This document shows, piece after piece, positions 39,811-64,000 of a stretch of DNA of 64,000 nt. How positions within the stretch are numbered: the first letter of the stretch is position 1; every line of letters starts with the position of its first letter. A program made the translations under genes and the position numbers. Origin of the DNA: Erodium maritimum (taxonomy: Eukaryota > Streptophyta > Magnoliopsida > Geraniales > Geraniaceae); contig OY997588.1 in NCBI GenBank assembly GCA_963921825.1, positions 157,295,618-157,359,617 of the forward strand, written 5' to 3'. Below the pieces are notes generated by a model. The model was given only the letters and a program-made list of their open reading frames with translations, was not told the origin of the DNA and did no database searches.

Positions 39811-46649
<6,839 letters not shown>

Positions 46650-47400: not shown

Positions 47401-47430
47401 GCTATAAAAGGGGTCGGAACCCACACAACA
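47401..47430 (+). promoter_or_regulatory. Core promoter box of S-protein homologue 1
   Basis: The block ctataaaaggggtcggaac contains the TATA box. Nearly the same block occurs at about 53570, 56113 and 58229 before the other cluster genes, each 55-85 bases before the start codon. Confidence 0.75.
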
Positions 47431-47470
47431 AAACACACATAAAAAAAACATAACTAGGTCGATCCAAAAG

Positions 47471-47887
47471 ATGAAGAGTCTCCCGTTCCTCGTTATCATT
47501 GTCGTATCCATCGCTATGATGGATATGCCTGGTTTAGTAACCGCTATTAGCCTATTGCCACGTAGCCACGTGTACATTAGGAACGACTTAGAGGGTGAAC
47601 CAGACCTGACCCTTCACTGTAAATCAAAAGACGATGATCTCGGTGTTCACGTTCTTAAGACCGGCCAAGTTTATTCGTTCAGATTCAGGCCGAATTTTTG
47701 GGGGGTAACTCTATACTATTGTAGCTTTGAATGGGAAGGCTTGGGGCCTCACTGGGTCGACGTTTATAAGGCATTTCCTATATGTCCGGAGTGTAAATGG
47801 AGCATTAAGAGGGATCATGCATGCAGGTTCAATGATAACTCTCAAGCCTATGATGATTGTGTTGATTACAAGACCTCTGCTCACTAG
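47471..47887 (+). CDS. S-protein homologue 1 (plant self-incompatibility S1 family)
   Basis: Small secreted protein of the S1/SPH family, 138 residues, intronless as is usual. A signal peptide covers about 1-25 (ends GLVTA). The mature part has the family core: an NDLEG loop, LTLHCKSKDDDLGVH, YSFRFRP, then YYCSFEWEG and WVDVY. Six cysteines are seen, including a CPEC pair (C-x2-C) before KRDHACRF. Family founder PrsS is the Papaver pistil S-determinant; most homologues have unknown roles, so no self-incompatibility function is claimed here. It is the first of four plus-strand copies. Confidence 0.95.
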   Translation: MKSLPFLVIIVVSIAMMDMPGLVTAISLLPRSHVYIRNDLEGEPDLTLHCKSKDDDLGVHVLKTGQVYSFRFRPNFWGVTLYYCSFEWEGLGPHWVDVYKAFPICPECKWSIKRDHACRFNDNSQAYDDCVDYKTSAH

Positions 47888-48133
47888 TTATTAAATATGT
47901 GTAACCTTTTTATTGATTTTGATGAATAAGATTTATAAATTTGTATCCATGGTTTGTTTTTCTTTTTCTTTTACTTATGATCATGTCTTTGTTTATGTAA
48001 ATTGTTCAAGACCTTGAACTTGAGTTTGTGGTTAGGATTAGCTCAAGTGCTTGTAACTGGCTGTGAGAAAATTTAAAAGTTTTATAGTTAAGTGAGAAAA
48101 TTAAAAGATCAGTATAATTAAGTAAAAAATGTA
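47888..48133. other. 3' flank of S-protein homologue 1
   Basis: The 3'UTR includes the gattttgatgaataagattt block shared with the other cluster members. AT-rich DNA follows. No other gene. Confidence 0.5.
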
Positions 48134-50880
48134 TTTTTTTTATCGGCAAAACAAATAGAATTAAAATCTCTTTTGAGGTGAAAGAGGAGGTATCAAAACT
48201 GAGATCGGTAACCCCTCGTCGGCCAACACCAAGCAAGGACCATAAGGAAAAGGTCTGTAATTATACCGAACACGAACCAACCTGAATCCGGACAGATCTG
48301 ACATCAAATCCAGCCAAGAAGCACAACGCCACGACCGAGCTTCCGAGCAAAAGACTCCAACAAATAGGCAGCAGGAAGTCAACAGTTCTAGGGATCTGAG
48401 GCTGGACTCGAGTTGAGCGTTCCAAAACCGAGACCGATAACCCCTCGCCGACCAACACCAAGCGAGTATCCGAGGGGGAAGGCCTGTATTTATACCAAGC
48501 ACGAGCTAGCTTGCACCTGGATAAGTCTGACACTAAAGCCTGTAGATAAGAGGAACGCCACATCCAAGCTTCTGATTATCCGCGACGACGAGGGACGAGA
48601 CCAGATTCACAACGAATCAAAGATCCAAACGATCAAGAAACACTTCGCATGGTAAATCTGAAACAAGCCACCTAAGAACCATCACAAATGAGACTGGAAA
48701 AGGAACATCAACCCTGCTTCCACCACCACATCACCAGCTGAAAACTGACACCTTCATAAACTAAGAATCCGAAACTGGAACTCGAGCTGAGCGTTCCGAT
48801 ACCGAAACTGGTAACCCCTCGTCAGCCAACACAAAACGAGGACCCGAAGGAAAAAGCTTGTAATAACACCGAGCACGAGTGAAGCCAAACTCAGAAAGAG
48901 GCCAAAATCAACATTGGCGCGCGAGCTTAGACTCCACCCAACTAAGGTCACGAGAAGCATAAAAGGCAGCCAACCGAAAAGCGTCGTAGAGAGAAAAATG
49001 AGAAGAAGACCAAGACCAAGACCAACCCGACCCAGACCGACCCGACCCGGTCCAAACCATCCTAGTCCAATCCAATCCAACTCAACCCGGTTGAGCCCTA
49101 CCAAGTTCCAAACAAGTTCAGCTTGCCCGCCCCAGGCAGACGAACCCGTACTGACCTCCATCATGGCAGCTCGAGCTATGAGAGCAGAGACACCGGCTTC
49201 ACTAGGAGAAACCCGCCCAAAAATCAAGCCACATGGGGGGATCTGGAACACACACCTGCTTGAGTTCAAACCACCACGAACTCAGAAAGACGTCCATGAA
49301 GTTAGGCCTGCCTGAAACCAGCTGAAGAAGCAGGGGCGGAGGAGGCACGCCCGGTAAGGCTCCTCCAGAACAGCACGAACCCTATCGGAGCAACAACTCT
49401 TCTCAAAGCAAGCCTAACCGAACTCGAGATCTTCCGGCCAAAACAAGAAGTAAAACACATCTGGAAATGAAAAGAAAAAAATGAAATAGAGGAAGGAGAG
49501 ACGAGCAGAAGAACAAAGGGAGGAGGATGGTTGGATTTAGCAGAAGAAGCTCAATTATGAAGTACAAAGAAAAAGCGGTCTACTACCCAGATTTGTCAAC
49601 CATGAATCTCAATTAAGCTAGTCGTCTTCCATTGAAGACACCCATAACTTTACCCAAACATGGGAAGAATATTGTATCTCATTGGCACCCCAACTCTAAG
49701 AGTTGAAGGACACTGACTCGCCGCCAACCACCCCCCCCCCCCAACAATAGGAAGAGATACAAAGAAAATCGAAACGAGCCTACATCTAAGGATGATCGTG
49801 AAAAGAAAAATGTGAGACAAGAACCTTACTATCTGCGACGACCAGGGGACAGACCAAAAGCACAACGAATCTGAGATCAAAAACGTTTCCCATGGTAGAT
49901 CTAGGACAAACCACACGTGAGTCACCTCAAGAGGGTCCGGAGAACAACTACCTAGTAGATAAAGTCACCACACAGAAGCACACTTTCCAAGAACCTCCTT
50001 CCAAACCAGGACCACAGTGAATCCTTGACGGAAACACTTTCCACGGTAGAACTGAAACCACTTCTCCGATGACAAAGAAGAGCGGAACGGAAGGAGACAC
50101 TGGCAGCCCACCAAAATTTGAGGCAACACGCGAAGAAGCCCTAGATCTGCTAGAGGCGAGCCATATTCGAGATCCATATGTGGAGGCGAGCTCCGGCGTA
50201 TAGGAGCTCATGTGATGACGTGCTCAGCACCACACAAACTGAGAAGCACTCCCTTTACGACCTCCAGATCCACATGTGGCGGTAAAACTCGCGCCACAAG
50301 AGCCACAAGCAACCAGAAGGAGAGACTTTATCACCACGAATCCAAAGGAGAAAAAGAAAAGCGGCTGACCAGAGAGAAAAGAACTCTGGTAACCAAGCTC
50401 CAACTACGGCCTAATAAGCCCACACGCACAGGCGTGCTCAACGCACGAGCATAACCCAGGAAGTCGGGCTTGAGGACCACCCCGACGAGGACTCCAACGA
50501 GACACCAAGCCAGAGCTAGGGACGAACCCCTAGTTCATGGACGGAACCAACCCCCGCGTAGCAGATATGCACCTTTAGAGCCCACAAAATGACCGGAGTG
50601 CTGACGATCGACGAGGGTACCCCAGCAGCATACCACACGCACGAACCCCACTTCTGACTAGCTGACGACGGTAACGACGAGAACAAACGGGCGGAGGAGA
50701 AAAATCTCGAGGGAAGCAACGGGGAAAAAGGAAAAGAAGAAGGGACTAAGAGATGATAAGGGGAGAGGGCAGAGGGGCATCCGCCGGTAACAACCAGTGA
50801 GGGTTGTCACCGGTAGGAGAGGAGGTTGTAGAGGAGGAGTCTTTTACGGGTAGGTTTTTTGGGGCTTTTTTCCACTGCTC
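48134..50880 (-). mobile_element. LINE-related repeat block, non-coding
   Basis: The block starts with a poly-T run (48133-48141), as for a minus-strand non-LTR element. It contains a unit (gataacccctcg-cg-ccaacaccaagcgag type) at about 48195, 48430 and 48800, and a second unit (aacgaatc-agatc-aa and tccatggtag types) near 48600, 49860 and 50030. The 5' end on the minus strand is CT-rich around 50700-50880. No reverse transcriptase motif is found. The right boundary and single-element status are uncertain. Confidence 0.5.
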
Positions 50881-51420
50881 AATTCAATTATTTTATCCAC
50901 CGATTCGGATAGAGTGGTGGTGTCTCAGATGCTCACCGGCCACGCTAAGGCGACCCTGTGAGATTAAGAAAGCCAGATACCCGAGGAGGCATCTAGAGGA
51001 AGGAGGAGTCTTGGGACCGAATAATCTCAGGTCCCTCCAAGTCGAGGTACGACTCCTCTCTGGTATCCATGAAGTCTTGCGACTCATTTGACCTGGCGAG
51101 ACTGTATAACAAACCTCGATTGGTTGATACTTTCTTTTTTTTCGTACATTAGGGACATCGAGTAAGACAGATGCAGTGGATTCATAGGTGTCGGTGACGG
51201 TTGGGAGGGAGCCGATAAGAGCGATGGATGCCATGGCGAGGTGTTCGATGCAAACTGGTGCAGAAGCGGCGACAAAAGCGACAAGCCTGGAAGAGAGCAA
51301 GACGTCGTCGCAGATCTCAGATTCGCATACAAGATCTATTTGGGGAGACAAAGGTGACCGGCGAGTTCAACAAGATAGATGGAAAAGATGATGGAAATTT
51401 GGGGTCGGACGACAACACTG
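50881..51420. other. Unassigned GC-richer stretch
   Basis: Open frames on both strands overlap here but show no family signature. It may belong to the neighbouring LINE-related block or to the ancestral form of the tandem repeat that follows. Confidence 0.3.
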
Positions 51421-52590
51421 AAGGATAACCAATCATATTCACCAAAAAAAGAAAGGGTGTCACATATATCAAAGATGGCAAGGGCCTACGAATACATTGA
51501 AGGATAACTAGACATATTCACCGGTGAAAAAAAGGTGTCACATATGTCAAGGATGATAAGGGCAGGCGACAATAACGAAGGATAACCAAACAGATTCACC
51601 AGAGAAGAAATGACGTCATATATGTCAAAGATGACAAGTGTCACGGACTTTTTGGCGACCCCCTTTTGCCTACGGCCAGATTAATGCGTTAACGACATCT
51701 TCTATGGTTTGCAGGTATGCTCCGTTCTCTTGACGTGCGATAGCCCCTTGCTTTGAGTGTCTCGGATCGTTCTTCAACGGTAGGATGGGCCAAGTCTGCT
51801 GCGCACCATCCTCAGACGGCTGAACTCGGGCCCTTTGGGACCTCGCCAAGGGCTCGGGTTCCGGGCGCGCCTGGGGGACCGGGACGGGTCCTGCCGGGGC
51901 GTTTCAAGTGGTATCAGAGCGGGTCGATAGGGTACCCCGCATGAGAACTCAACATGGTGGATCGCTCAAGAAAGACGGTGTGCCGAGCGCTGGGCGCTGA
52001 GCTGACGAGGTGAATGCCAACACGTAGGCACTAGGTGCCGAGAGATCACGGGGTCGTGTGCGTGTGTCGAGTTGGGCAAGTGCACGGGGGAGCGCGGGTT
52101 GGTGCGAGCCAGGAGGGCTGCCAACATGTAGGGCACAGGGATGCCTGAGGACGCCACGGACCGTTGGAGTGAAGGGGCGCGAGGGTGCGCTGGTTGGCCG
52201 AGGGAATGTGCCGTCAGCAAGATGCAGACAAGAGATGGTCAAAGGCCGAAGGTTGAAGGTCCTCGCCGAGGACGGCGAGAGAATGGGTGGGGGAGAATGT
52301 CACGGACTTTTTGGCGACCCCCTTTTGCCTACGGCCAGATTAGTGCGTTAACGACATCTTCTATGGTTTGCAAGTATGCTCCGTTCTCTTGACGTGCGAT
52401 AGCCCCTTGCTTTGAGTGTCTCGGATCGTTCTTCAATGGTAGGATGGGCCAAGTCCGCTGCGCACCATCCTCAGACGGCTGAACTCGGGCCCTTTGGGAC
52501 CTCGCCAAGGGCTCGGGTGCCGAGCGCGCCTGGGGGACCGGGACGGGTCCTACCGGGGCGTTTCACAAGGGCCGATTGCCATTATGCATC
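51421..52590 (+). repeat. Three-unit tandem repeat interrupted by a TRIM
   Basis: Units of about 78 bases begin aaggataacc at about 51421, 51501 and 51580 and contain attcacc, gtcacatatgtcaa and a gatga-aagggc end. The third unit is split by the 927-bp TRIM at caag; its end (caagggccgattgcc) resumes at 52566. Joining across the element restores the pattern gatgacaagggcc seen in the other units. Confidence 0.8.
51639..52565 (+). mobile_element. TRIM retrotransposon (927 bp, two 268-bp LTRs)
   Basis: LTRs 51639-51906 and 52298-52565 run from tgtcacggac to ggggcgtttca and differ at about 7 positions. After the first LTR and two bases comes the primer site tggtatcagagc (51909-51920) for initiator tRNA-Met. 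A purine tract gggtgggggagaa (52285-52297) precedes the second LTR. The bases caag flank both ends (51635-51638 and 52566-52569). The 391-bp interior has no gag or pol motif, so mobilisation needs proteins from another element. Confidence 0.95.
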
Positions 52591-53565
52591 CTCAAATTCA
52601 TTATTTAGTTACATCTCTTCTCCAAAATTCTTAAAGTCTCTTCTTTCACCAAAATTTAATTTTAATGAATTCATTTAATGTATAATCTTAACCCAAATCG
52701 TATTTAATCAACTCATCAAATACAATCAAATAACTAATAGAATCAACCGGTGACTACAAATAGTGACAGATCTAGCTTTTTTAGTGAGGGGGCATCAAAT
52801 TTTGTTTTTATATAATACATTACGTTCAGTCAATATAAACTACCATTAAAAATATTAATATTACATAAAAATAATAAATGACAACTTATTACACGATATG
52901 ACGTCAAAATTTCATATTTTGAAAATATTTTAAAACACTTTCTTTGTCAATTCAATCAAAATATATTTATTTATGTATAGGATCGTACTCATCTATTGAT
53001 TTTCCATTCGATCTTTAAGCGATCTTGGTGATATTTTTGAAACATCGTTTTATGAATATTATAATTTTGTAAATAACTAAACTCAAAACCCAAAACTCAA
53101 ACTAATGGTATCCTTAAACTTTAGGAAATTACTTAAATAAAAATAAGTTTGTGTAAGTAATCATAATTAAGAAATTTAAATAATAAAAAAAAAATTAAGA
53201 AATTTAAATAACAAACATAAGACAATTAGGCAACTTAAAATTTGGGAAGAGATACAATTAAGAAATAAATCGAAAAAAAAGGAAATAAATCGAGGGGGAC
53301 ACAGTTTGAAGATTTCAAATGTATATATAATTCATAAATTTTAAAAATTAGGTAACTAAAGTTGGAAAAAAAATTGTCCACATCGAAGAACATCTCAATA
53401 GTGGAAATAAATTAAAAATACAATAATCATAGGATCGAGTTTAAGTATGGTATTAAACTTTATTGCTTCGTCTCTAATCTTTACCATGTTTTAACCAAAA
53501 TCTCACGTTCTGAATTATTAAAAAGGAAACAAACAAATCACAATAACCCAAATCAATTACGCTAG
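52591..53565. other. AT-rich intergenic DNA
   Basis: No gene is recognised. A short repeated piece, taagaaatttaaata, occurs at about 53168 and 53195. Confidence 0.5.
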
Positions 53566-53590
53566 TTAACTATAAAAAGGGTCGGAACGT
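53566..53590 (+). promoter_or_regulatory. Core promoter box of S-protein homologue 2
   Basis: The block actataaaaagggtcggaac is nearly identical to those before the other cluster genes. It lies about 80 bases before the start at 53655. Confidence 0.7.
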
Positions 53591-53654
53591 ACACAACTCT
53601 AACACACACAAAAAAACAAGTCACTACAAAACCCTGACTAGGTCGATCGAAACG

Positions 53655-54080
53655 ATGAAGAGTTTCTCGTTCCTCGTTATGATCGTCGGATCCATCTCTA
53701 CGATGGTCATCATGTCCGGTTTAGTAACTGCGGATGTCCCGTGGGGACGCACCCACGTGAAAATTACTAACTCATTGGAGGGAAGACCAGACCTAACAGT
53801 TCAATGTAAATCAAAAGACGATGATCTCGGTGTTCATGTTCTTAAGTTCAACTACGAATATTCGTTCGGGTTCACGCCAAATATTTTCGGGGCAACTCTA
53901 TACTATTGTCGATTCGAATGGGAAGGCAAGGGGCCTTATTGGGTCGACGTTTATGGATCCGATCATATTTATTGTGAGGAGTACTGCAGCTGGTACATTT
54001 ACAAGAATCATGCATGCCTATACAATGAAAGAACTTATAACGATGATATTTGCATTAATTTTAGGACTTCTGCTCATTAG
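53655..54080 (+). CDS. S-protein homologue 2 (S1 family)
   Basis: Secreted S1-family protein of 141 residues without introns. The signal peptide ends near VTADV (about 27). The core has NSLEGRPDL, CKSKDDDLGVHVLK, YSFGFTP, YYCRFEWEGKG and WVDVYG. It has six cysteines, but the extra pair is C-x3-C (CEEYC), not C-x2-C as in copies 1 and 3. The ending NFRTSAH parallels YKTSAH of copy 1. Role unknown; likely an apoplastic ligand by family analogy. Confidence 0.95.
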   Translation: MKSFSFLVMIVGSISTMVIMSGLVTADVPWGRTHVKITNSLEGRPDLTVQCKSKDDDLGVHVLKFNYEYSFGFTPNIFGATLYYCRFEWEGKGPYWVDVYGSDHIYCEEYCSWYIYKNHACLYNERTYNDDICINFRTSAH

Positions 54081-54737
54081 TTCTTAATTATGTAACGTTT
54101 TAGTGATTTTTTTTATCGGGAATTTTAGTGATTTTGATGAATAAAATTTATAAAGTTTCATGTATGATTGTGCCTTTGTTTATGTTAATTGCTCAAGCAC
54201 TTGAATTTAAGTCGTGATAGGATCGGGCAATGGATTGTTTCTGAAATTTTGATGATCAAAGAGCGAAGATACAAATTGGGCCGTAATTAGAAAATATTAA
54301 AATTTCAATGGTGTTCGGACAGAAAATGTTTTTTTAGCGAATAAAGTCTTTATTTTTTTTTTTATCAGAGAAGTTTTATAAGGCCTTATTTTCAAAGTGA
54401 GATATAGGCGGTCTGAATGGGTACAGACTAATACCACGAACTACGAAAAACCCCGGCAGATTCGCAGCTAGATGAAACCATCCAACCACAACACAACCAA
54501 AAAAACACGAAACAAAACAAAGCAGACCAAACAACCTAATAAACCCAAACAAAACAACTCGGAACCAAAACAGAAACCAAGAGACAACAACAACTCAATA
54601 CCAAAAACTACTAGGTTTTTTCTGCTAGGGTTCCTCTCGAACCGTCCTAGCCACCGCGACGTTGGCTCCCTTCCGCCACCAATGACGTGACTCGATCTGC
54701 ATGTATAGGATCATCTCTCATGATCAACCCTCGCCGT
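54081..54737. repeat. 3' flank and LINE-like fragment
   Basis: The shared gattttgatgaataaaattt 3'UTR block is followed by AT-rich DNA. At about 54349-54362 there is a long poly-T followed by LINE-tail-like sequence on the minus strand, reaching a tagccaccgcgacgttggc block at about 54649 also found near 20456. No gene. Confidence 0.45.
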
Positions 54738-54795
54738 CTTTAAAAAAATCCCCATAATGAGCTTTGATTCAGGATCCAACATAATGACTAATTAA
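54738..54795 (+). pseudogene. Orphan copy of S-protein homologue 4 promoter segment
   Basis: The block aatccccataatgagctttg with gattcagg and atccaaca matches the promoter of S-protein homologue 4 at about 58185-58232. No S1-family coding sequence follows, only unrelated repeat. This suggests a lost cluster copy or a stray segmental duplicate. Confidence 0.7.
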
Positions 54796-55184
54796 TAATC
54801 ACTTAGTTTGTAGAATATTAGAAATTGTTTATTTTAATTATCAATCCGACCATATGTCTGATCAACTCGTTCAATTAAACGGTAAAGCGGTGATTAATCG
54901 CTCGAATCGGATATTAATCGGTCATATTCCGCTCAAACAACCTAAAATGCCTTAAAAAGATAAATCGAATCGATAAAACCCATTCCAACGCCCCAACAAG
55001 ACTTAAGCGCCTCCAGGCGGAGAGTTTTACAACCTTAGCTTGCATCCGAGCCATCTCATCCATTCTATGGACAAGATCATTTGATAAAGTGGGTAACAGA
55101 TCACGACAAAGTGGATTAATCACATTTCATCCAAGATTTTTATGTTCGTTTAAAAAAAGTTTTCTATATAACGCAGACGCAAAC
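54796..55184. other. Intergenic repeat-like DNA
   Basis: Contains gattaatcgctcgaatcggatattaatcgg-type blocks related in style to the gattaat repeats elsewhere in the window. No gene is recognised. Confidence 0.35.
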
Positions 55185-55930
55185 CCCTCTCTTCAACTCT
55201 AGCTGCCGCCCCTGCCCCTGCTCCCGCCCCTTTGAGATATCTGTTTCCTGCCGGCGACGTCATGGTCTTCGGCCATGGATGTCGCCGGTAGGTCCTCTTG
55301 TTCTTCTGCTCCGTTTTCCCCCGGCTTCAACCCCCCCCCCCCTCGTACCCCCTTTCCCCCCTCTCCTCTCAAGGCGGGGTCAGGGCCGGAATTTCATGTT
55401 CCGGTGTCTGTGTCCGTCTCCGACTGACGCTGTTTTGGTGTCAACGGACTCGCAAGGTGGGTCTGAGCGGTGGTGGGCAGCTCCGGCGACTCGTCACGCT
55501 GCAGATCCGGCCTGAACGGTTACCTTTAGCGGGGATCTGGAGCTCGCGTTTTCTGGATTCCTCGGGTCAAGGTCCCTTGTCAGACGGTGGCGATTCTGTT
55601 TCGGCTAGGTTTTTTTCCTTTCGTCTTTTTTTACAGTTTTTTTAATAACTGCACTTGATGCAGATTGGGTGTGCACTAGTTGCACGTTTGGTGTGCCCGT
55701 ATGTAGCACGGTTTGGTGTGCACGTTGTTGCACTTTTGACGTGCACGTGTTTGCACGTTCTAGGGCGTCCTATGTGCGTTATAGTAGGGAGTTTCGGTAA
55801 TATTATATTATAGGCTCGTTAGTTTGGAGTCTGTAATTTTATCATTTGCTTGTGCGCTTTCATCAGATTGTACGTATATCGCTTTGATTGATATATAAAA
55901 TTGATGCCTCCCGCTTTTCATCAACAAAAA
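55185..55930 (+). mobile_element. Non-autonomous LINE-type retroposon, plus strand
   Basis: It starts with a CT- and GC-rich 5' part (about 55185-55560), passes through tgcacg-ttggtgtgc repeats at about 55670-55760, and ends gcttttcatcaacaaaaaaaa. Poly-A lies at about 55924-55931. No coding domain is seen. I could not define a clean target duplication. Confidence 0.55.
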
Positions 55931-56109
55931 AAATCACATTTCCTGTTCAAGCTAGTCAAAATTCAAATTGTTATTAAAATAATATTAAAAATAGAAACAA
56001 ATAAAATCATTTGGGATAATACAAATAAATTACATTTAACTCCAATAATCACTATCAGATGTTTCCTTACAAATCTCCATGCAATAATATTCTATCACAA
56101 GGCTAGTTT

Positions 56110-56135
56110 ACTATAAAAGGGGTCGGAACCTACAC
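56110..56135 (+). promoter_or_regulatory. Core promoter box of S-protein homologue 3
   Basis: The block actataaaaggggtcggaac, preceded by atcacaaggct as in copy 1, lies about 65 bases before the ATG at 56179. Confidence 0.75.
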
Positions 56136-56178
56136 AAAAACAAGTCACTACAAAACCCCAACTAAGTCGATCTAAAAG

Positions 56179-56577
56179 ATGAAGAGTCTCACATTCCTCG
56201 TTATGGTCGTATCCCTCGCTATGATGGCTATGCCTGGATTAGTAACCGCACGCAACCACGTGTACATTACGAACAACTTAGAGGGTGGGCCAGACCTAAC
56301 TCTTCACTGTAAATCAAAAGACGACGATCTGGGTGTTCACGTTCTTAAGAGCAACGAGGTCTATTCTTTCGGGTTTAGAGATAATATTTGGGGGACAACT
56401 AAGTTCTATTGCAGCTTTGAATGGGAAGGCACTGGGCTTCATTGGGTCGACGTTTATGGAACCGGTAACAATCAATGTACGGAATGCAAATGGAGCATTA
56501 GGAGGGATCATGCATGCGAGTTCAATGCAGTTCTTCAAAAAGATGTTTGCATCAATTATAGGACTTCTGTTGTTTAG
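56179..56577 (+). CDS. S-protein homologue 3 (S1 family)
   Basis: Secreted S1-family protein, 132 residues, intronless. The signal peptide ends near LVTARN (about 23). The core has NNLEGGPDL, LHCKSKDDDLGVHVLKS, YSFGF, FYCSFEWEG and HWVDVYG. Six cysteines include a CTEC pair before RRDHACEF. It is closest to copy 1 in promoter, leader and sequence, so these two are probably the most recent pair. It ends INYRTSVV, slightly shorter than the others. Confidence 0.95.
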   Translation: MKSLTFLVMVVSLAMMAMPGLVTARNHVYITNNLEGGPDLTLHCKSKDDDLGVHVLKSNEVYSFGFRDNIWGTTKFYCSFEWEGTGLHWVDVYGTGNNQCTECKWSIRRDHACEFNAVLQKDVCINYRTSVV

Positions 56578-56836
56578 GTCTTGGATATGTGACCTTTTAA
56601 GTGATTTCGATGAATAAGATTTATAAAATTTTATGTATGTTTTTGTTTTGTTAATCGTTTAAACACCTGGACTTGAGTCATGATCGGTTCCAGCGATTGA
56701 TTATTTCTGAAATTTCAACGATCGAAGATTGGAGATATGAAGTGAACCCTAATTAGTACATGTTGTTAGACTACTACAAGACATTTTATTGTCGACCGAA
56801 CATATTGTCGTCTGTCGGTAATGTTATCAAAAAAAG

Positions 56837-57500
56837 GTTGAGTTAATGTTCAATCCAACCCAAAAGCTTAAATTTGTAGGTGGATGCACTAAAATATATA
56901 TCAATTTCAATGTGAGACTCACACTGTTCAACATCCCCTCACGTGTAGAGGACTGAATATTTATACGTGGGTCATAGTAGGACTGAATAGTTGTATATAG
57001 ACCGGAGACTATATGGTAGAGGTGACAAACATACCTTATAGCATCCACAATGGTCTGCCATGAGTAGTGGTAGGAAGCCATGGTAAGCGGTGCTTTTTGG
57101 CTTTCTTTCTCATCCCTACCATGACCCCTCTAATGGTCTGTCATGACTAGTGGTAGAGAGCCATGGTTTGTAGTTGTTTTCAAGCAAAATAGCATTTCTC
57201 TCTCCTCTAAAATAGCTCCTACCACGGCGTCTGGTCGTTGCAAGATCCTGCAACGACGCTCTGCCACGCCACCCATGCAACGATGCCCTGCAACGACGAG
57301 CCGTGACAGCGAGTCGTGACAAAGCCGTGGTAGGCCTTGCAACGACCGTTGCAGGTGCTCTTAGGCCGAACCAGTTCTGATATCATGTTCAAGCCTAATC
57401 CAACTCAAAAACTCGAACTAATAAGTGGAGGCATCAAAATATATATCAAGAAGTCGATTTATCCACACACTTTCGATGTGGGACTCACACTTCAACATGC
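56837..57500 (-). mobile_element. TRIM-like element interrupted by a MITE
   Basis: Two terminal-repeat-like pieces (56847-56933 and 57386-57497) share blocks such as aatccaac-caaaa, caaaatatatatcaa and gtg-gactcacac and have TG...CA ends. Next to the second piece, on the minus strand, tgatatcagaac (57374-57385) resembles an initiator-tRNA primer site. The ends do not share a clear target duplication. The MITE at 57036-57363 lies inside it. Assignment as TRIM is tentative. Confidence 0.55.
57036..57363. mobile_element. PIF/Harbinger-like MITE with TTA duplication
   Basis: The element 57039-57360 starts tagcatccacaatgg and ends as the complement of gagcacctgcaacgg, flanked by tta on both sides (57036-57038, 57361-57363). 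Three-base TTA/TAA duplications and gagcat-caatgg-type ends are typical of PIF/Harbinger-derived MITEs. The interior has short repeats of ggtctg-catga-tagtggtag. Confidence 0.75.
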
Positions 57501-57722
57501 GGGTAATGAAATTTATGGTTGTACACTTCGATGCTCTTATAAAGTTTAATTTTTTCAAACCTTTTTAGCAAAAATTCATCTTACCTTTTTTGAGATGGAC
57601 ACCTAATTTTCACCTTTTGTAGCAGGAAATAATTTTCGTTAAATTGTACAAACACTGTCAGTTCAGTTTTTTTTAGCAAAAAGTAACAGTCATCTTCTGA
57701 GGTGTTTTGAAAAATGTTTTCG

Positions 57723-58105
57723 TTAGAGCATATACAATGTGTGTTCCTCGTCTAATACATTGATTCCAATTCTTGAAATCGAAGCTGAGTATCACAACGA
57801 CGCAGGGCCAAAAAATGAGAATCAATCAATACAGATTCTCGATGCTTGGAATTGATGCATGTTTGGGCATCGATATCAATTCAAGCGATCCCGATCCCTG
57901 TTTCCTTGTCATGGTAGTCAATAGGAACATGCCACTTGGCACGAAAGCTAGATTAAAAAAATATTTAAATATTTACAAATAGTAATGTATCATTTGATTC
58001 AAAGAATATTGTTTAAACATCAAAATAAAATCATAAAATTAATTAGAATAATTCTTAACATCAATTCCCCAGATACGCAGTACCATAAAGTTGTACATGC
58101 TCTTA
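57723..58105. mobile_element. Second PIF/Harbinger-like MITE with TTA duplication
   Basis: The element 57726-58102 begins gagcatatacaatgt and ends as the complement of gagcatgtacaactt, flanked by tta at 57723-57725 and 58103-58105. The interior is AT-rich without coding capacity. Confidence 0.75.
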
Positions 58106-58184
58106 ACTTACTTTAAACAAATCACATGACATCTCACGTTGTACTGGAAATTTAAACCTAGTCAGATTAATTTACCTTAAAAAA

Positions 58185-58240
58185 AATCCCCATAATGAGC
58201 TTTGATTCAGGTAAGATCCAACACAGTGACTATAAAAAAG
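58185..58240 (+). promoter_or_regulatory. Promoter segment of S-protein homologue 4
   Basis: Includes the aatccccataatgagctttg block (also at 54738) and a TATA-containing actataaaaaagggcgg variant at about 58229. The start codon follows at 58300. Confidence 0.6.
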
Positions 58241-58299
58241 GGCGGTGATGGACCCACACAACTCATTCGAAATCCTAAATCCTAAACGCTTTAACGGTT

Positions 58300-58728
58300 A
58301 TGAGAATTTTTTTATTCCTCGTCTTCTCCATCTCCGTAATGGCCATACCTACAAGAGGTCGGTCCACAAACGGACTTGTCAACAATCCTGTGACGGTGAA
58401 GATTACCAACATCCTGGAGGGAGGGCCGGACCTAACCCTTCACTGTAAATCAAAAGATGATGATCTGGGTGTTCACGTTCTCAAGTCGAACGAGTCCTAT
58501 GATTTCAGCTTCAAAACAAGGGTATTTGGGAGCACTCTGTTCTATTGCAGCTTTCAATGGGACGGTACCGTGCATTGGGCCGACGTTTTCGATCAAGTCT
58601 TGACGGAACTCGACGGTGAGGTCGTCGGGTGGGGCATCACGAAGGAGAAGATGTGTAGGTTTAATAAGAGTGATCAGAAATATGATGGTGCTTGTAGTTC
58701 ATATAGTGTTAGGTATGGTCTTAATTAG
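58300..58728 (+). CDS. S-protein homologue 4 (S1 family, divergent)
   Basis: Intronless S1-family protein, 142 residues. A short signal peptide covers about 1-18 (MRIFLFLVFSISVMAIP). The core retains NILEGGPDL, LHCKSKDDDLGVHVLKS, YDFSF, FYCSFQWDG and HWADVF. It has only four cysteines: the C-x2-C/C-x3-C pair present in copies 1-3 is replaced by a longer loop with GEVVGWGI. Two N-glycosylation sequons (NES, NKS) are seen. Downstream its 3'UTR is duplicated several times, so this copy seeded the repeats up to 60.5 kb. Confidence 0.94.
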   Translation: MRIFLFLVFSISVMAIPTRGRSTNGLVNNPVTVKITNILEGGPDLTLHCKSKDDDLGVHVLKSNESYDFSFKTRVFGSTLFYCSFQWDGTVHWADVFDQVLTELDGEVVGWGITKEKMCRFNKSDQKYDGACSSYSVRYGLN

Positions 58729-60260
58729 GGTTTAAGTATGTAACCCTATAGATTTTGATGAATAAGATTCAATAATCTTTATTTGAATTGCTCTTACTGA
58801 GACAGGTGTTATTTTCTTTTTGATAAAAGATATTATATGATGGTACTAATTATAGTGCTAGTTATGGTCTTAATTAGGGCTTAAGTATGTGTGACCCTAG
58901 AGGTTTTGATGAATAAGATTAAAACGTACCAGTTGATTTGCAAAATAACTTTGAGACCGTCAATAGTGATGTCGAATTTACGTATGGACGTAACGTCAAC
59001 TCGTACGATTTAAAGATTTCTACAGTCGAATCTCTGTTGCAGAATCGACGTGACGGTGAATATAAGAAAACAGGTATTCGACGTCGATGAATCTACAAAC
59101 TCTAACGCCGATCCATTCGATAGATTCAGGTTCAGCATGCAGTGTTAAATATGTAACACCATAGTGTTAGGTATGGTCTTAATTAGGGTTTGAGTATGTA
59201 ACCCTTGAGATTTTGATGAATAAGATTAAATAATCTTTATTTGAGTTGCTATGATTGAGAGGGTGTTATTTTCTTTTTGATAAAAAAATTATGTTTTTAT
59301 CCATAATGAAATCCGATCAGTATGATGGTACTAATTACATGATAGTTATGGTCTTAATTAGGGCTTAAGTATATGTAACCATAGGGGGTTTGATGAATAA
59401 GATTAAAACGTACCAGTTGATTTGCAAAATAACCTTCTGACAGTCTACATTGATGTCGAGTCTATGTCTGGACGTTCTGTCGACTCGTACGACGTGAAGA
59501 TTTTTATCGCTGAAACTATGTTGTAGAGTCGGTGTGGCGTCGAATGTGCGAAACCGTGTATTTGACGTCGATGAGTCTGCAGACTCTAACGCTGGTCCAT
59601 TCGATGGATTCGGGCCCAGCTGAATCGGGCCCAACAGATCCTTTGTTGACGCGTGGCGACAAAATTTCGGCTTAAATATCGAACCAACGCTTCTTCTTCT
59701 TCTTCTTCTTCTTCTTTTTCTTCACGATTTCTTTGCAACTCGATCACTCGCCGTTTCTCCAAGCATCTTCCTCAATCGGCGTTTCACTGAGCTGTCCAAA
59801 CTCGATGGCGTTTCTCCGAGCTTTTCTCCGCACAAACGTTTCTCCGAGCTTTCTCCTGTGTAGTTGTTCTCCAAGCACTCATCAGTCACCGACGTTTCTC
59901 CGGCCAGTCCTTCGTCACATCCGTCTCCAAGTGCAAAATGGTCGTTCGAAAGACGACAAGTACCCATCGTGATTGGACCAGGATTAGACCGCTTCGGTTT
60001 AATCCCATTATGGATGGTCTTATTTGAGTTAATCTGTTAGAGATGATGTTATTTTCTTTTTAACAAATGAATTTACGTTTGTATCCTTAATGAAATCTTG
60101 ATCGGACCAGAAACCGATCGAGATTCCTTCGTTAACCTTCTAAGATTTAGGATTGACGAAGACAGACGGGCGGGTGGTCGGGTGCACATCATGCGATGAT
60201 GGTCTAGGGCTTAAGTACGTAACCCTAGAGATTTTGATGAATAAGATTAAAACGTACCAG
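58709..60260 (+). repeat. Serial copies of the S-protein homologue 3'UTR cassette
   Basis: A block of the type tatggtcttaattagggctt, then aagtatgtaaccct and gattttgatgaataagatt, occurs at about 58715, 58867, 59173, 59347 and 60200. Two longer units (58927-59135 and 59408-59617) also repeat each other, beginning aaaacgtaccagttgatttg. Coding sequence is missing from these copies. Confidence 0.85.
59636..59990. other. Promoter-like or relic sequence with (CTT)n
   Basis: A (CTT)n run at about 59690-59720 is followed by reiterated gtttctccgagct-type blocks. Open frames on both strands lack any family motif. No function is assigned. Confidence 0.35.
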
Positions 60261-60490
60261 TTGATTTGCAAAATAACCTTTATTTGAGTTGCTCTAGCTG
60301 AGACGGTTTTATTTTCTTTATAACAACGAAATTACGTTTTTATCTCTAATGAAATCTCATTCGGGTAAGATTTGGATTGACGGAGCCAGACGGGCGATTG
60401 GTTGGGTGGACATCATGAGGGAGAAGGTGTGTAGATTTGATAAGTATGATAAAAAAATATGATGATGCTTCTACTAATTACAAGAGTTCC
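60138..60490 (+). pseudogene. S-protein homologue C-terminal relics
   Basis: About 60374-60486 matches the last part of copy 4 at DNA level (gggtgg-catca-ga-ggagaag, tgtgtag-ttt-ataag, aaatatgatg-tgct). It has a stop and an extra A in an A-run, so the frame is lost. A second, shorter trace with gacgggcg-ttggt-gggtg lies at about 60150-60195. Both sit directly next to the end of the DCL gene. Confidence 0.75.
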
Positions 60491-60623
60491 AATCTTTGCC
60501 TGTAAAGTGTAATTTCGTACACTTTTACAGAGAGCCCACAACTGAGTGACAATTGACTGATTCAACAAGGGAATTGTTGGGGGCAAAATCGTAATACAAG
60601 TTAAGGAGGATCACTATTCTTCA

Positions 60624-63600
60624 TTACATTGTGTTCCTTCTTGGTTGAAAATGTCTATGAATGAATTTGTCAGCATGTAGAGGGTACTTCTTCCTAATTA
60701 GCCCCTTTATGCATTTCCAGTATGAAAAGTCCATCATTGTCCCGTCCTTGCGTGATACGAATAAGCATCGAGATCTTTGAAAGTCGGGATGGTGTCCAAC
60801 CTGTCACAGAAATATGAAGCAATCACTTGTTGAAACTTACTTCAATGAAGAAGAAAGACTCTCGATGTGAAATTATTGAGAGAGAAAAAAACGTGTTTTG
60901 CATTACACTGTGTCTTGGACACTGTTTGTCGTTAATAAAAACTACCGGAAATCCTATTGCAGTCAGCCACATTTCCCATAAAGGCCTCAGAAAAAGGTTG
61001 TTTTGGGCGAAGGACCCATCACCCACTAAATTCGCCTACCTAGTGGCCACTTGCCACACAGCTATTAGCCCATGCACCGGGCTAATACCACTGTGGGAGG
61101 GTGGGCGTATTGGCTGGAAAAATCACCATTCACCTGGGCAAATCAGCCACAACGCTGAAGATGCTCTTATGAATTGTCCACATTTTCCCACGTGGCAGAC
61201 GGAAATCAAATTTCTGTTAGTTTTAGTAACGGTGAACAATGTCCAATACACAGTGTAGTGCAAAACACGTATTTTGTTCTTTCTGAAAGGCTTTTTTTCT
61301 GTCCTTGACCAATTCTGGAAATGGGCCATGACGGATCCAACCCATGTCCAACTACGAGAATTTATTATTTGTGAATTGGGTCACATCCATAAACAATTCA
61401 GGGATGTTTTCAAATCATCTAGAGGATGAATAGAATGAGGCGCAATTTTAACAGCCATTTAATAAGAAAGAAACCGTACTCGTTATCAAGTTATTTGAAT
61501 GCAAGAAGAAATACTTTTGACACTGTTAAGTTTTGGAAGGCAATACACTGAATTTAGTGCAAAAAAGTAACTAGAAAATAAATTAACAAATATAATTCTG
61601 AGAAAGAGACATACAGTGATATGATCAATTCCAGGTCCAATCTTCTGTTCAAACTCTGGATGGTATGGAAGCAACTTTTCCCGAATAGTTTTCTCATGCT
61701 CTGGACTCAATTTATCCCAATTTTCATACCTGCAGTGATCTCAAAATTAAATATGAAAATAATTAGAAGCAAAGCAAAAACCTCATATGACTTCATGCTT
61801 CGTTAATTATAAGTAGCTATTACATTGACGCGCTTTCCTTAGTTACGAGTTTTACGACAAAGAAAGATAACAGATTCAAAATTAATTGAACAGCATTTTC
61901 CTCTCAAAGTGCAAAGCAAAGAAACATAAAGGCTTCATATGATTACTCGATTATCCTTCTATTTAAATAAATAAATGCTGAAGTCCTTACTAGCACTAGC
62001 CATGACTATGTCTTAATTTATGTGCAAGCCCACAAGGATTTTAAATCCTATATAAGTTAAGGAAATTCTGAAGCGAGGCTTATAATTTTAGAATAACTTA
62101 ATAACTGATATTTATATATTTACATCCTAATACGGGAACAACAATATAGCTCGAACTTTCAAATTAATAATATACAACTGCAATTCAACACTACATCAGT
62201 GGCTTAGCCTCCTTACTTGAGACTCCATCATCAATGTCATACAGTTAAGATACTCAAAACTCTTAGTGTTCTAGTTCATACTAATCTATTTGTAGTAGTG
62301 CAGTTTCACAAAGTTGATTCTTTAAGCACCAAAACACTTTAGTTCTGTTTCCTGATCCTCAATACCCATCAATTATGCAAATGTTATGCTCCATGGATAA
62401 TAATAAACACGAACATTTTCATAAACTTGATTCTTTAAGCACTACCTATTGAGACTCCATCATCAATGTCATACAGTTATGTACTCAAACTCTGAACTTT
62501 CTAGTTCATACTAATCTATTTATAGAAGTGCAGTTTCATAAAGTTGATTCTTTAAGCACCAACAACCCATTAGTTTTGTTTCTTCATCCTCAATACCCAT
62601 CAATTAGGAAAATGTTACGCTCCACGGACGCTAAACATGAACGTTTTCATATTTGATTCTTTAAGCACTACCTATTATTACTCATCAATTAGCCAAACCT
62701 TGTGCTTGATGGATGATAAACTCACCCACAACCATAAAAAGAAAGGCTCTTCTTCAAGCAACCACCACTTCCAATGGATTTGACCAATTCCATTTCACTT
62801 AAATGACCATATTCAAAACTCAATTCAACATCACTCAACTTATGCTTGATGGATAATGAACACTAACATTTTCATAAATTAGTTTCTTTAAGCAGAAATA
62901 ACCCATTATCACACATCAATTAGCCAAATGTTATGCTTATAGCTACAACCTTAAACAGCCTCTCCTAAAGCAACTACCACTTCCAATGGATTTGAGCCAT
63001 TCCATTGCACTCAAGTGACCAAATTCAAATTCAAATTAACAGCACTCAACTTATGCTTGATGGATAATGAACACTAACATTTTCATAAATTTGTTTCTTT
63101 AAGCACAAACAACCCATTATTACACATCAATTACCCAAATGTTAATACTTACGCTAAACTTAGCTACAACCTTAAAAACCCTCTCCTAAAGCAACCACCA
63201 TATCCGATGGATTTGAGCAACCCCATTTCACTTAAACGACCATATTCAAATTCAATTCAACAGCACTCAACTTATGCTTGATGGATGATGAACACTAACA
63301 TTTTCATACATTTGTTTCTTTAAGCACAAATAACCCATCATCACACATCAATTAGCCAAATGTTATAACGTATGATGAACTTAGCTACAACCTTTAAAAA
63401 CCTCTCCTAAAGCAACAACCACTTCCAATGGATTTGAGCAACTCCAATGCACTCAAGTGACCATATTCAAATTCAACTTATGCTTGATGAATAATGAACA
63501 CTAACATTATCATAAATTTGTTTCTCCAAGCACAAACAACCCATTATTACACATCAATTAGCCAAATGTTATGCTTATAATAAACTTAGCTACAACCTTA

Positions 63601-64000
63601 TAGAGCCTATCCTAAAGCATCCACCACTTTCAATGGATTTGAGCAATTCCATTGCACTCAAGTGACCATATTCGAACTCAAATTCAATTTAACAACACTC
63701 AATTTATGCTTGATGGATGATGAACACTAACATTTTCAACCACCACTTCCAATAAATTTGAGCAATTCCATTACACTCAAGTGACTATATTCAAATTCAA
63801 ATTCAAATCAACAGGACTCAAAGTTAAAGAACAAAGCATTTCACAATCTCATGCATCAACACAATTTCAAAATTAAAAAAATATATATTAGCATTATCTT
63901 CAACAAGCAGAAATGCAACAATTCCATAACCATTTCATAGCCATTACTTACCTCCCAGTGTGAAGAATCAACCTAACATATCCAACCAGAGGCACAGTCT
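60624..64000 (-). CDS. DCL-like protein (DUF3223), 3' part of gene, runs off window
   Basis: Plastid-targeted DCL family; tomato DCL is needed for chloroplast development and 4.5S rRNA processing. Three exons are seen on the minus strand: from beyond 64000 to 63952, then 61729-61615, then 60800-60624 with the stop. Phases agree (Arg codon split 2+1 at the first junction, phase 0 at the second). The reading gives VGYVRLILHTGR, then YENWDKLSPEHEKTIREKLL and IGPGIDHIT, then VGHHPDFQRSRCLFVSRKDG, DFSYWKCIKGLIRKKYPLHA and an FIHRHF end. This is the conserved DUF3223 domain. The transit peptide and N-terminus lie outside the window. Intron 61730-63951 holds a tandem array and intron 60801-61614 a hairpin MITE. 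Confidence 0.93.
60870..61295. mobile_element. Hairpin MITE in DCL intron
   Basis: Sequence at about 60880-60970 (acgtgttttgcattacactg, ttggacactgtt) is complementary to about 61195-61285 over 80 or more bases with a few mismatches. The interior contains ORFs that I consider chance. Termini and target duplication are not resolved. Confidence 0.75.
62200..63830. repeat. Tandem array in DCL intron
   Basis: Two related unit types alternate. One of about 234 bases (ctccatcatcaatgtcatac) occurs at about 62223 and 62457. The other, about 220-240 bases, occurs about five times between 62700 and 63830 and contains ttccaatggatttgagcaat, acttatgcttgatggat, aacactaacattttcataaa and cacatcaattagcc. Identity between later units is about 85-90 percent. 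Confidence 0.88.

Follow-up and report, generated by a model that had tools for sequence, protein, structure and literature searches.

Genes of the cluster

The interval between positions 47401 and 60490 of a 64,000-nucleotide stretch of the Erodium maritimum genome (the window, by which the whole analysed stretch is meant) contains four genes of the S-protein homologue (SPH, or S1) family, and we are concerned here with the origin of these genes and of the transcription signals that they share. The window corresponds to C1:157295618-157359617, near the right end of contig C1 (158.55 Mb); the complete genome is 763 Mb in 40 contigs. Each gene is a single-exon open reading frame (ORF) on the plus strand that matches the Pfam profile PF05938 with 87 to 96.5 bits, above the curated cut-off of 24 bits, so that the preliminary description of four intact S1-family genes in one orientation is confirmed:

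47471..47887, + strand: gene 1, 138 amino acids (aa), with both cysteine pairs and six cysteines past the signal peptide (PF05938 E 1.7e-27)
53655..54080, + strand: gene 2, S1/SPH, 141 aa (PF05938 E 4.1e-26)
56179..56577, + strand: gene 3, S1/SPH, 132 aa (PF05938 E 6.5e-27)
58300..58728, + strand: gene 4, S1/SPH, 142 aa, without the C-x-C-x-W pair (PF05938 E 1.4e-24)

The four proteins, 132-142 aa long, all begin with a hydrophobic N-terminal stretch, as judged by eye only. An AlphaFold model of the gene 1 protein, built from a four-sequence alignment, has nine strands, which as a prediction agrees with the eight or nine of a beta-sandwich (mean pLDDT 73.9; residues 1-27 are below 50). When this model was compared to the Protein Data Bank (PDB) by fold search, the top match was SPH15 (6g7g, E 1.5e-4, TM 0.54 by query length); a sequence search of PDB found no SPH relative, and a scan of the window with Rfam at gathering scores gave no match. 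The proteins are small, cysteine-rich, predicted beta-sandwiches, probably secreted, and, by analogy with the rest of the family, they are most likely extracellular ligands for a receptor on another cell.

Six-gene subclade and its cysteine signature

Genome-wide, there are 69 matches to PF05938 at E 0.001, including the four cluster genes; three partial ones among the 65 located outside the window (E 1e-8, 3.7e-4 and 6.1e-4) were left out. The set of 52 family genes used below was derived from 71 matching stretches in 61 sequences by removing 19 that lacked an upstream methionine or were shorter than 115 residues; in two members of the set, L035 and L055, the profile match is interrupted by a stop.

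In protein trees, genes 1-3 group with three dispersed genes, L019, L033 and L049 (ultrafast bootstrap, UFBoot, 89; FastTree support 0.78), and gene 4 adjoins this clade as an outgroup (80 and 0.71, respectively, for the seven-gene node). The clade thus consists of three tandem copies in the window and of members at C1:2.75 Mb (L033), C3:5.07 Mb (L019) and C4:74.3 Mb. The closest relative of gene 3 is L033, with 83% identity over 749 columns to C1:2751478-2752219.

Two cysteines are universal in the family (52/52 genes), two later ones are found in all four cluster genes, and each of the four has at least four conserved cysteines. We observed that, in the family alignment, the two later cysteines occur together with a C-x(1-4)-C-x-W pair in only 6 of the 52 genes, which are exactly the members of the clade; 28 others have the later pair alone, 14 have the C-x-C-x-W pair alone, and four have neither. 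This restricted distribution is a new observation.

TATA block

An 18-bp block that includes the TATA box is found upstream of genes 1, 2 and 3:

47403..47420, + strand: TATA block of gene 1, TATAAAAGGGGTCGGAAC, exact match
53571..53588, + strand: TATA block of gene 2, one mismatch to the block of genes 1 and 3
56112..56129, + strand: TATA block of gene 3, exact match; apart from the TATA box it contains GGGTCGGAAC
58231..58248, + strand: TATA-like site of gene 4, TATAAAAAAGGGCGGTGA, six mismatches, not the shared block

The block had been thought common to all four genes, which is correct for genes 1-3 but not for gene 4; 64 of 1040 shuffled upstream regions equal or better the six mismatches of the latter. 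None of 100 shuffles gave three or more matches at up to three mismatches. The consensus TATAAAARGGGTCGGAAC (R = A or G) has three exact sites in the genome, at genes 1, 2 and 3 only. Allowing one mismatch adds four further sites; one belongs to the SPH gene L019 (C3:5.07 Mb), and in the 1.1 kb around each of the other three there is no clear SPH homology (best tblastn E 0.010, 52 queries). The level of up to two mismatches is background, because it gives 59 sites compared to 60 for the reversed control. A gapped form of the block finds eight sites, versus five for its own control, and five of the eight are SPH genes, L033 among them.

Within the 52-gene set, the block is present at three mismatches or fewer in five genes (genes 1, 2 and 3, L019 and L033), whereas every one of the 1040 shuffled upstream regions has four or more. 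L049, the remaining member of the clade, is without it. The carriers of the block track the protein tree; the block has thus been passed on by descent, with one loss or absence. It would be a working core promoter in those genes that keep it.

3' block, relics and the piece at 54738

The second shared signal is located downstream of the coding regions, where traces of further, decayed copies are also found:

47915..47933, + strand: 3' block of gene 1, GATTTTGATGAATAAGATT (C1:157343532-157343550)
54130..54148, + strand: 3' block of gene 2, one mismatch (C1:157349747-157349765)
56603..56621, + strand: 3' block of gene 3, one mismatch (C1:157352220-157352238)
54738..54788, + strand: relic of the DNA upstream of the gene 4 TATA box
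58703..59620, + strand: tandem pair of ~460-bp units (79% alike); each unit contains two gene-4-type 3' ends and a dispersed-repeat fragment
60203..60252, + strand: relic 3' end with an exact 3' block (nhmmer E 8.1e-6)
60404..60496, + strand: coding relic of the C-terminal part of gene 4 (nhmmer E 2.2e-6; the DNA match to gene 4 is at 60377-60473, 75.5%)

GATTTTGATGAATAAGATT follows each of the four genes with at most one mismatch, as had been proposed. At up to one mismatch it occurs at 12 sites genome-wide, compared to three for the reversed control, and ten of the 12 are SPH 3' ends, belonging to six genes (1-4, L019 and L033) and to four relics; the other two sites are at C1:143.55 Mb and C9:16.23 Mb. 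Relic 3' ends are found at 58837-58924, 59161-59241, 59306-59407 and 60203-60252, with nhmmer E-values, counting the coding relic, between 1.6e-10 and 8.1e-6. The expectation of coding relics near 60.1-60.5 kb is borne out by the coding relic in the last entry above. The first gene-4-type 3' end of the tandem units is gene 4's own. We also found one more gene-less 3' end, not described before, beside the clade relative L033 at C1:2753507-2753681 (86%).

A ~190-bp portion of a dispersed repeat occupies 58946-59136, within the 3' array of gene 4; the array unit has 37 genome matches, of which 34 are diverged copies of this portion.

The piece at 54738-54788 had been interpreted as an orphan promoter. 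It does resemble the gene 4 upstream DNA at 58176-58230, with 87% of 55 columns matching (E 7e-12), but contains no TATA block, and the match stops where the TATA box begins. A genome search with this piece at E 0.01, in which very common words were skipped, retrieved only the piece itself and gene 4.

Divergence of the flanks

The flanks had been called nearly identical, in contrast to diverged coding parts. This description suits the 18-bp block; the wider flanks have diverged a little less than the coding regions but are not nearly identical, as seen in the per-site counts for genes 1-3. Between the ATG and a point four bases before the TATA box, genes 2 and 3 differ at 8/71 sites, genes 1 and 3 at 12/61, and genes 1 and 2 at 17/72. 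The 3' untranslated regions (UTRs) of these genes differ at 15-18 of 75-76 sites, and the coding regions, past the tract discussed below, at 74-77 of 286-289. Recognisable homology among the three genes begins 1 to ~90 bases upstream of the TATA box; for gene 3 and L033, 171 columns upstream of the TATA box are aligned, of which 157 are identical. Global alignment evaluated against shuffles was tried for judging the flanks and was superseded by local alignments and blastn, because gaps inflate identity and make the global comparison too weak.

The control that matters most sets the clade against family members of equal relatedness. When protein identity is 0.55-0.77, the median local score of the 5' flanks is 29 for the 15 pairs within the clade and 36 for 59 other family pairs, and a one-sided test for higher scores in the clade gives p=0.86; pairs in this control share genes and so are not independent. 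The best score among genes 1-3, 46, is matched or exceeded by 25 of the 59 other pairs; by contrast, the clade pair of gene 3 and L033, with a score of 95, is the top of the 0.7-0.8 identity band. The proposal that promoter similarity here exceeds that of family members elsewhere holds against most family pairs, but not against equally related ones; by this control, shared promoters are normal between SPH genes of such relatedness in this genome.

Upstream insert and probable mosaic structure of gene 3

Three features are noted in gene 3 and its upstream region:

55039..55130, + strand: far-side part of the gene 3 upstream region, 67.5% over 117 columns to C1:2751373-2751489, upstream of L033
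55118..55942, + strand: LINE-like (long interspersed nuclear element) insert with body at 55129-55931, an A-rich end recognised by eye, and 11-bp target duplications AATCACATTTC at 55118-55128 and 55932-55942
56164..56286, + strand: gene-1-like tract of gene 3, comprising the end of the 5'UTR, the signal peptide and the start of the domain

An insert with 11-bp target duplications has split the upstream region of gene 3, a feature newly observed here. The L033 counterpart at C1:2.75 Mb is uninterrupted at this position, and the upstream homology of gene 3 ends early in part because the insert breaks a region that is continuous there. The LINE-like label of the insert is a tentative one.

In the tract at 56164-56286, gene 3 is closer to gene 1 (47456-47596) than to its sister L033. 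With L033 as the background, the tract spans alignment columns 74-221, and clustering as strong as that observed arose in 0 of 400,000 permutations (p about 2.5e-6; 3e-4 after Bonferroni correction for 120 triplets). Genes 1 and 3 differ at 14 of 107 coding sites within the tract and at 74 of 286 outside it (p=0.006). The most probable cause is gene conversion, with a gene-1-like gene as donor and gene 3 as the presumed recipient. Duplication together with gene conversion has been discussed for S-like genes of Papaveraceae (PMC3166141), in the one study that a search on gene conversion in this family retrieved.

Pairwise ratios of nonsynonymous to synonymous divergence (dN/dS; 95% bootstrap ranges in brackets) are 0.83 (0.50-1.40) for genes 1 and 2, 0.38 (0.22-0.63) for genes 1 and 3, and 0.62 (0.36-1.04) for genes 2 and 3. 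Past the conserved core they are, respectively, 1.13 (0.57-2.34), 0.43 (0.20-0.77) and 1.15 (0.57-2.40). We do not claim positive selection on genes 1-3, since the ranges of the near-1 ratios include 1.

Other elements in the window

Between genes 1 and 2, the segment at 48100-50880 looks, by eye, like a long minus-strand LINE-type element with internal repeats. It is followed by a tandem array at 51408-51638 (78-bp unit, 2.9 copies), which is immediately 5' of a short element at 51639-52565. The latter is bounded by two terminal repeats that agree at 261 of 268 columns. It has TG...CA ends and is flanked on either side by CAAG, and a TGGTATCAGAGC stretch follows its first terminal repeat; we take it to resemble a terminal-repeat retrotransposon in miniature. 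The segment at 52762-53188, upstream of gene 2, is shared with DNA downstream of L033 (C1:2752349-2752964) and was considered as a ghost transcription unit; this idea was dropped, as the insert is flanked by repeated TTTAAGCC, and we judge it, by eye, to be a transposable element common to the two places. Outside of the gene cluster, a minus-strand ORF at 44212-45270 has a weak match to the WW domain (23.7 bits, below the cut-off of 26.9), and another tandem array, with a 221-bp unit in 4.5 copies, is found at 62756-63738.

Origin of the cluster and alternative explanations

In our opinion, the interval is best understood as a tandem cluster of four SPH genes in ordinary birth-and-death evolution, to which we assign a probability of about 85%. 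Genes 1-3 and the three dispersed genes inherited a core promoter and a 3' processing region jointly with the coding sequence, start and end signals being shared because the genes are copies of one ancestor. One of the six has lost the core promoter or never had it; gene 4, which has only the 3' block in common with them, is an older relative. Decay of some copies has left behind 3' ends and a single coding relic, a LINE-like element has split the upstream region of gene 3, and gene 3 has probably acquired a short tract through gene conversion with a gene-1-like gene as donor. The preliminary idea of gain and loss of transcription units is supported by what we see, namely a six-gene subclade both tandem and dispersed, decayed 3' ends, a coding relic, and the gene-less 3' end near L033. 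The recurrent promoter cassette as an entity finds no support: the TATA block tracks the protein tree, and the 5' similarity in the clade is not above that of 59 like pairs, so that the data can be explained without a special cassette and give no ground for concluding co-expression.

Several observations weigh against this account. The UFBoot value of 89 for the six-gene clade is moderate, and the cysteine classes are alignment-dependent, since L035, 99% identical to L055, is put in a different class from this near-twin. Across the five block-bearing genes, the TATA block varies at 2 of 18 columns and the adjacent 5'UTR at 20 of 38 (p=0.003) or 23 of 39 (p=0.001), depending on the alignment; being less variable than its neighbourhood, the block may be held in place by something. 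The non-coding flanks of gene 3 and L033 differ at 21 of 313 sites, compared to 43 of 289 in the coding region outside the tract (p=0.001), a pattern not expected if the flanks simply decayed neutrally. Finally, with silent codons alone the conversion tract is not significant (p 0.11 and 0.31).

Some of these points bear on other explanations. The low variability of the block leaves room for selection on the promoter, short of proof, and would suit a co-expressed array, in which genes 1-3 would be regulated as one group through their common core promoters and the block would be retained by selection for this purpose. Persistence of the block in two dispersed copies and the long upstream identity of gene 3 and L033 point the same way, yet we consider such an array unlikely: homology of genes 1-3 upstream of the TATA box stops within ~90 bases, an insert sits ~180 bases upstream of the gene 3 TATA box, and L049 of the same clade has no block. 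Moreover, a study of potato tandem duplicates reports that promoter similarity correlates weakly with expression (r 0.09-0.19; PMC9131075), making it a weak guide, and a shared block alone would not be expected to make genes co-expressed. More ambitious still, and quite doubtful, is the proposal that TATAAAARGGGTCGGAAC is a functional core-promoter element of one SPH subclade, under selection and marking a regulated set, while gene conversion reshuffles the coding parts, so that one expression programme would serve changing ligands. If, on the other hand, the tract in gene 3 reflected faster change of the L033 signal peptide rather than exchange, no gene conversion would be required. Signal peptides vary quickly, silent codon counts are not decisive, and three other triplets re-run with 400,000 permutations fail correction (0.09-0.17); the main triplet, however, remains significant after correction, and genes 1 and 3 are closer within the tract than in the rest of the coding region, which makes this explanation somewhat unlikely.

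A mobile or recurrent cassette, in which TATA block and 3' block would travel or be duplicated as units, independently of the coding sequence, might be suspected from the confinement of the exact TATA block to this cluster, from gene-less 3' ends at several places, and from the gene 4 upstream stretch that stands alone at 54738. That stretch is without the TATA block, however, and the block was not found above background apart from the gene family: non-family near-matches are at the level of the reversed control, the three nearest sites show no clear SPH homology in the 1.1 kb around each, and presence of the block tracks the protein tree. We regard a mobile cassette as very improbable. The same is true, to an even greater degree, of a self-incompatibility locus, where the genes would be S-determinants like poppy PrsS with diversity maintained by balancing selection. 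The protein family is the same, and two of the dN/dS ratios past the conserved core are slightly above 1; but their ranges include 1, the ratio for genes 1 and 3 is well below it, and SPH genes occur in most plants, even those with other self-incompatibility mechanisms (PMC6439154).

Under birth-and-death evolution, the cluster displays the turnover of a large family of secreted ligands in one plant genome. Units are duplicated together with their core promoter and 3' end; some reside on other chromosomes, others are now reduced to 3' ends, and neighbouring genes may exchange coding tracts. Promoter sharing between paralogues looks striking in one window, yet it is normal for equally related family members. 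A literature search, which carries little weight, found no publication that could be tied to this cluster.

Comparison with known systems

The cluster proteins share with Arabidopsis SPH15 (6g7g) the Pfam profile, the size, the two universal cysteines and the predicted nine-strand beta-sandwich. One cysteine pair is typical of the SPH family at large in this genome, whereas genes 1-3 and their three relatives hold both. PrsS, the stigma S-determinant of field poppy, is a small secreted cysteine-rich protein of the same family (PMC13033167); S-locus linkage, the PrpS partner and pistil expression belong to the poppy system. Gene clusters under birth-and-death evolution with gene conversion are a general kind, from which we see no essential difference here: this cluster likewise has tandem and dispersed copies, relics and a mosaic gene.

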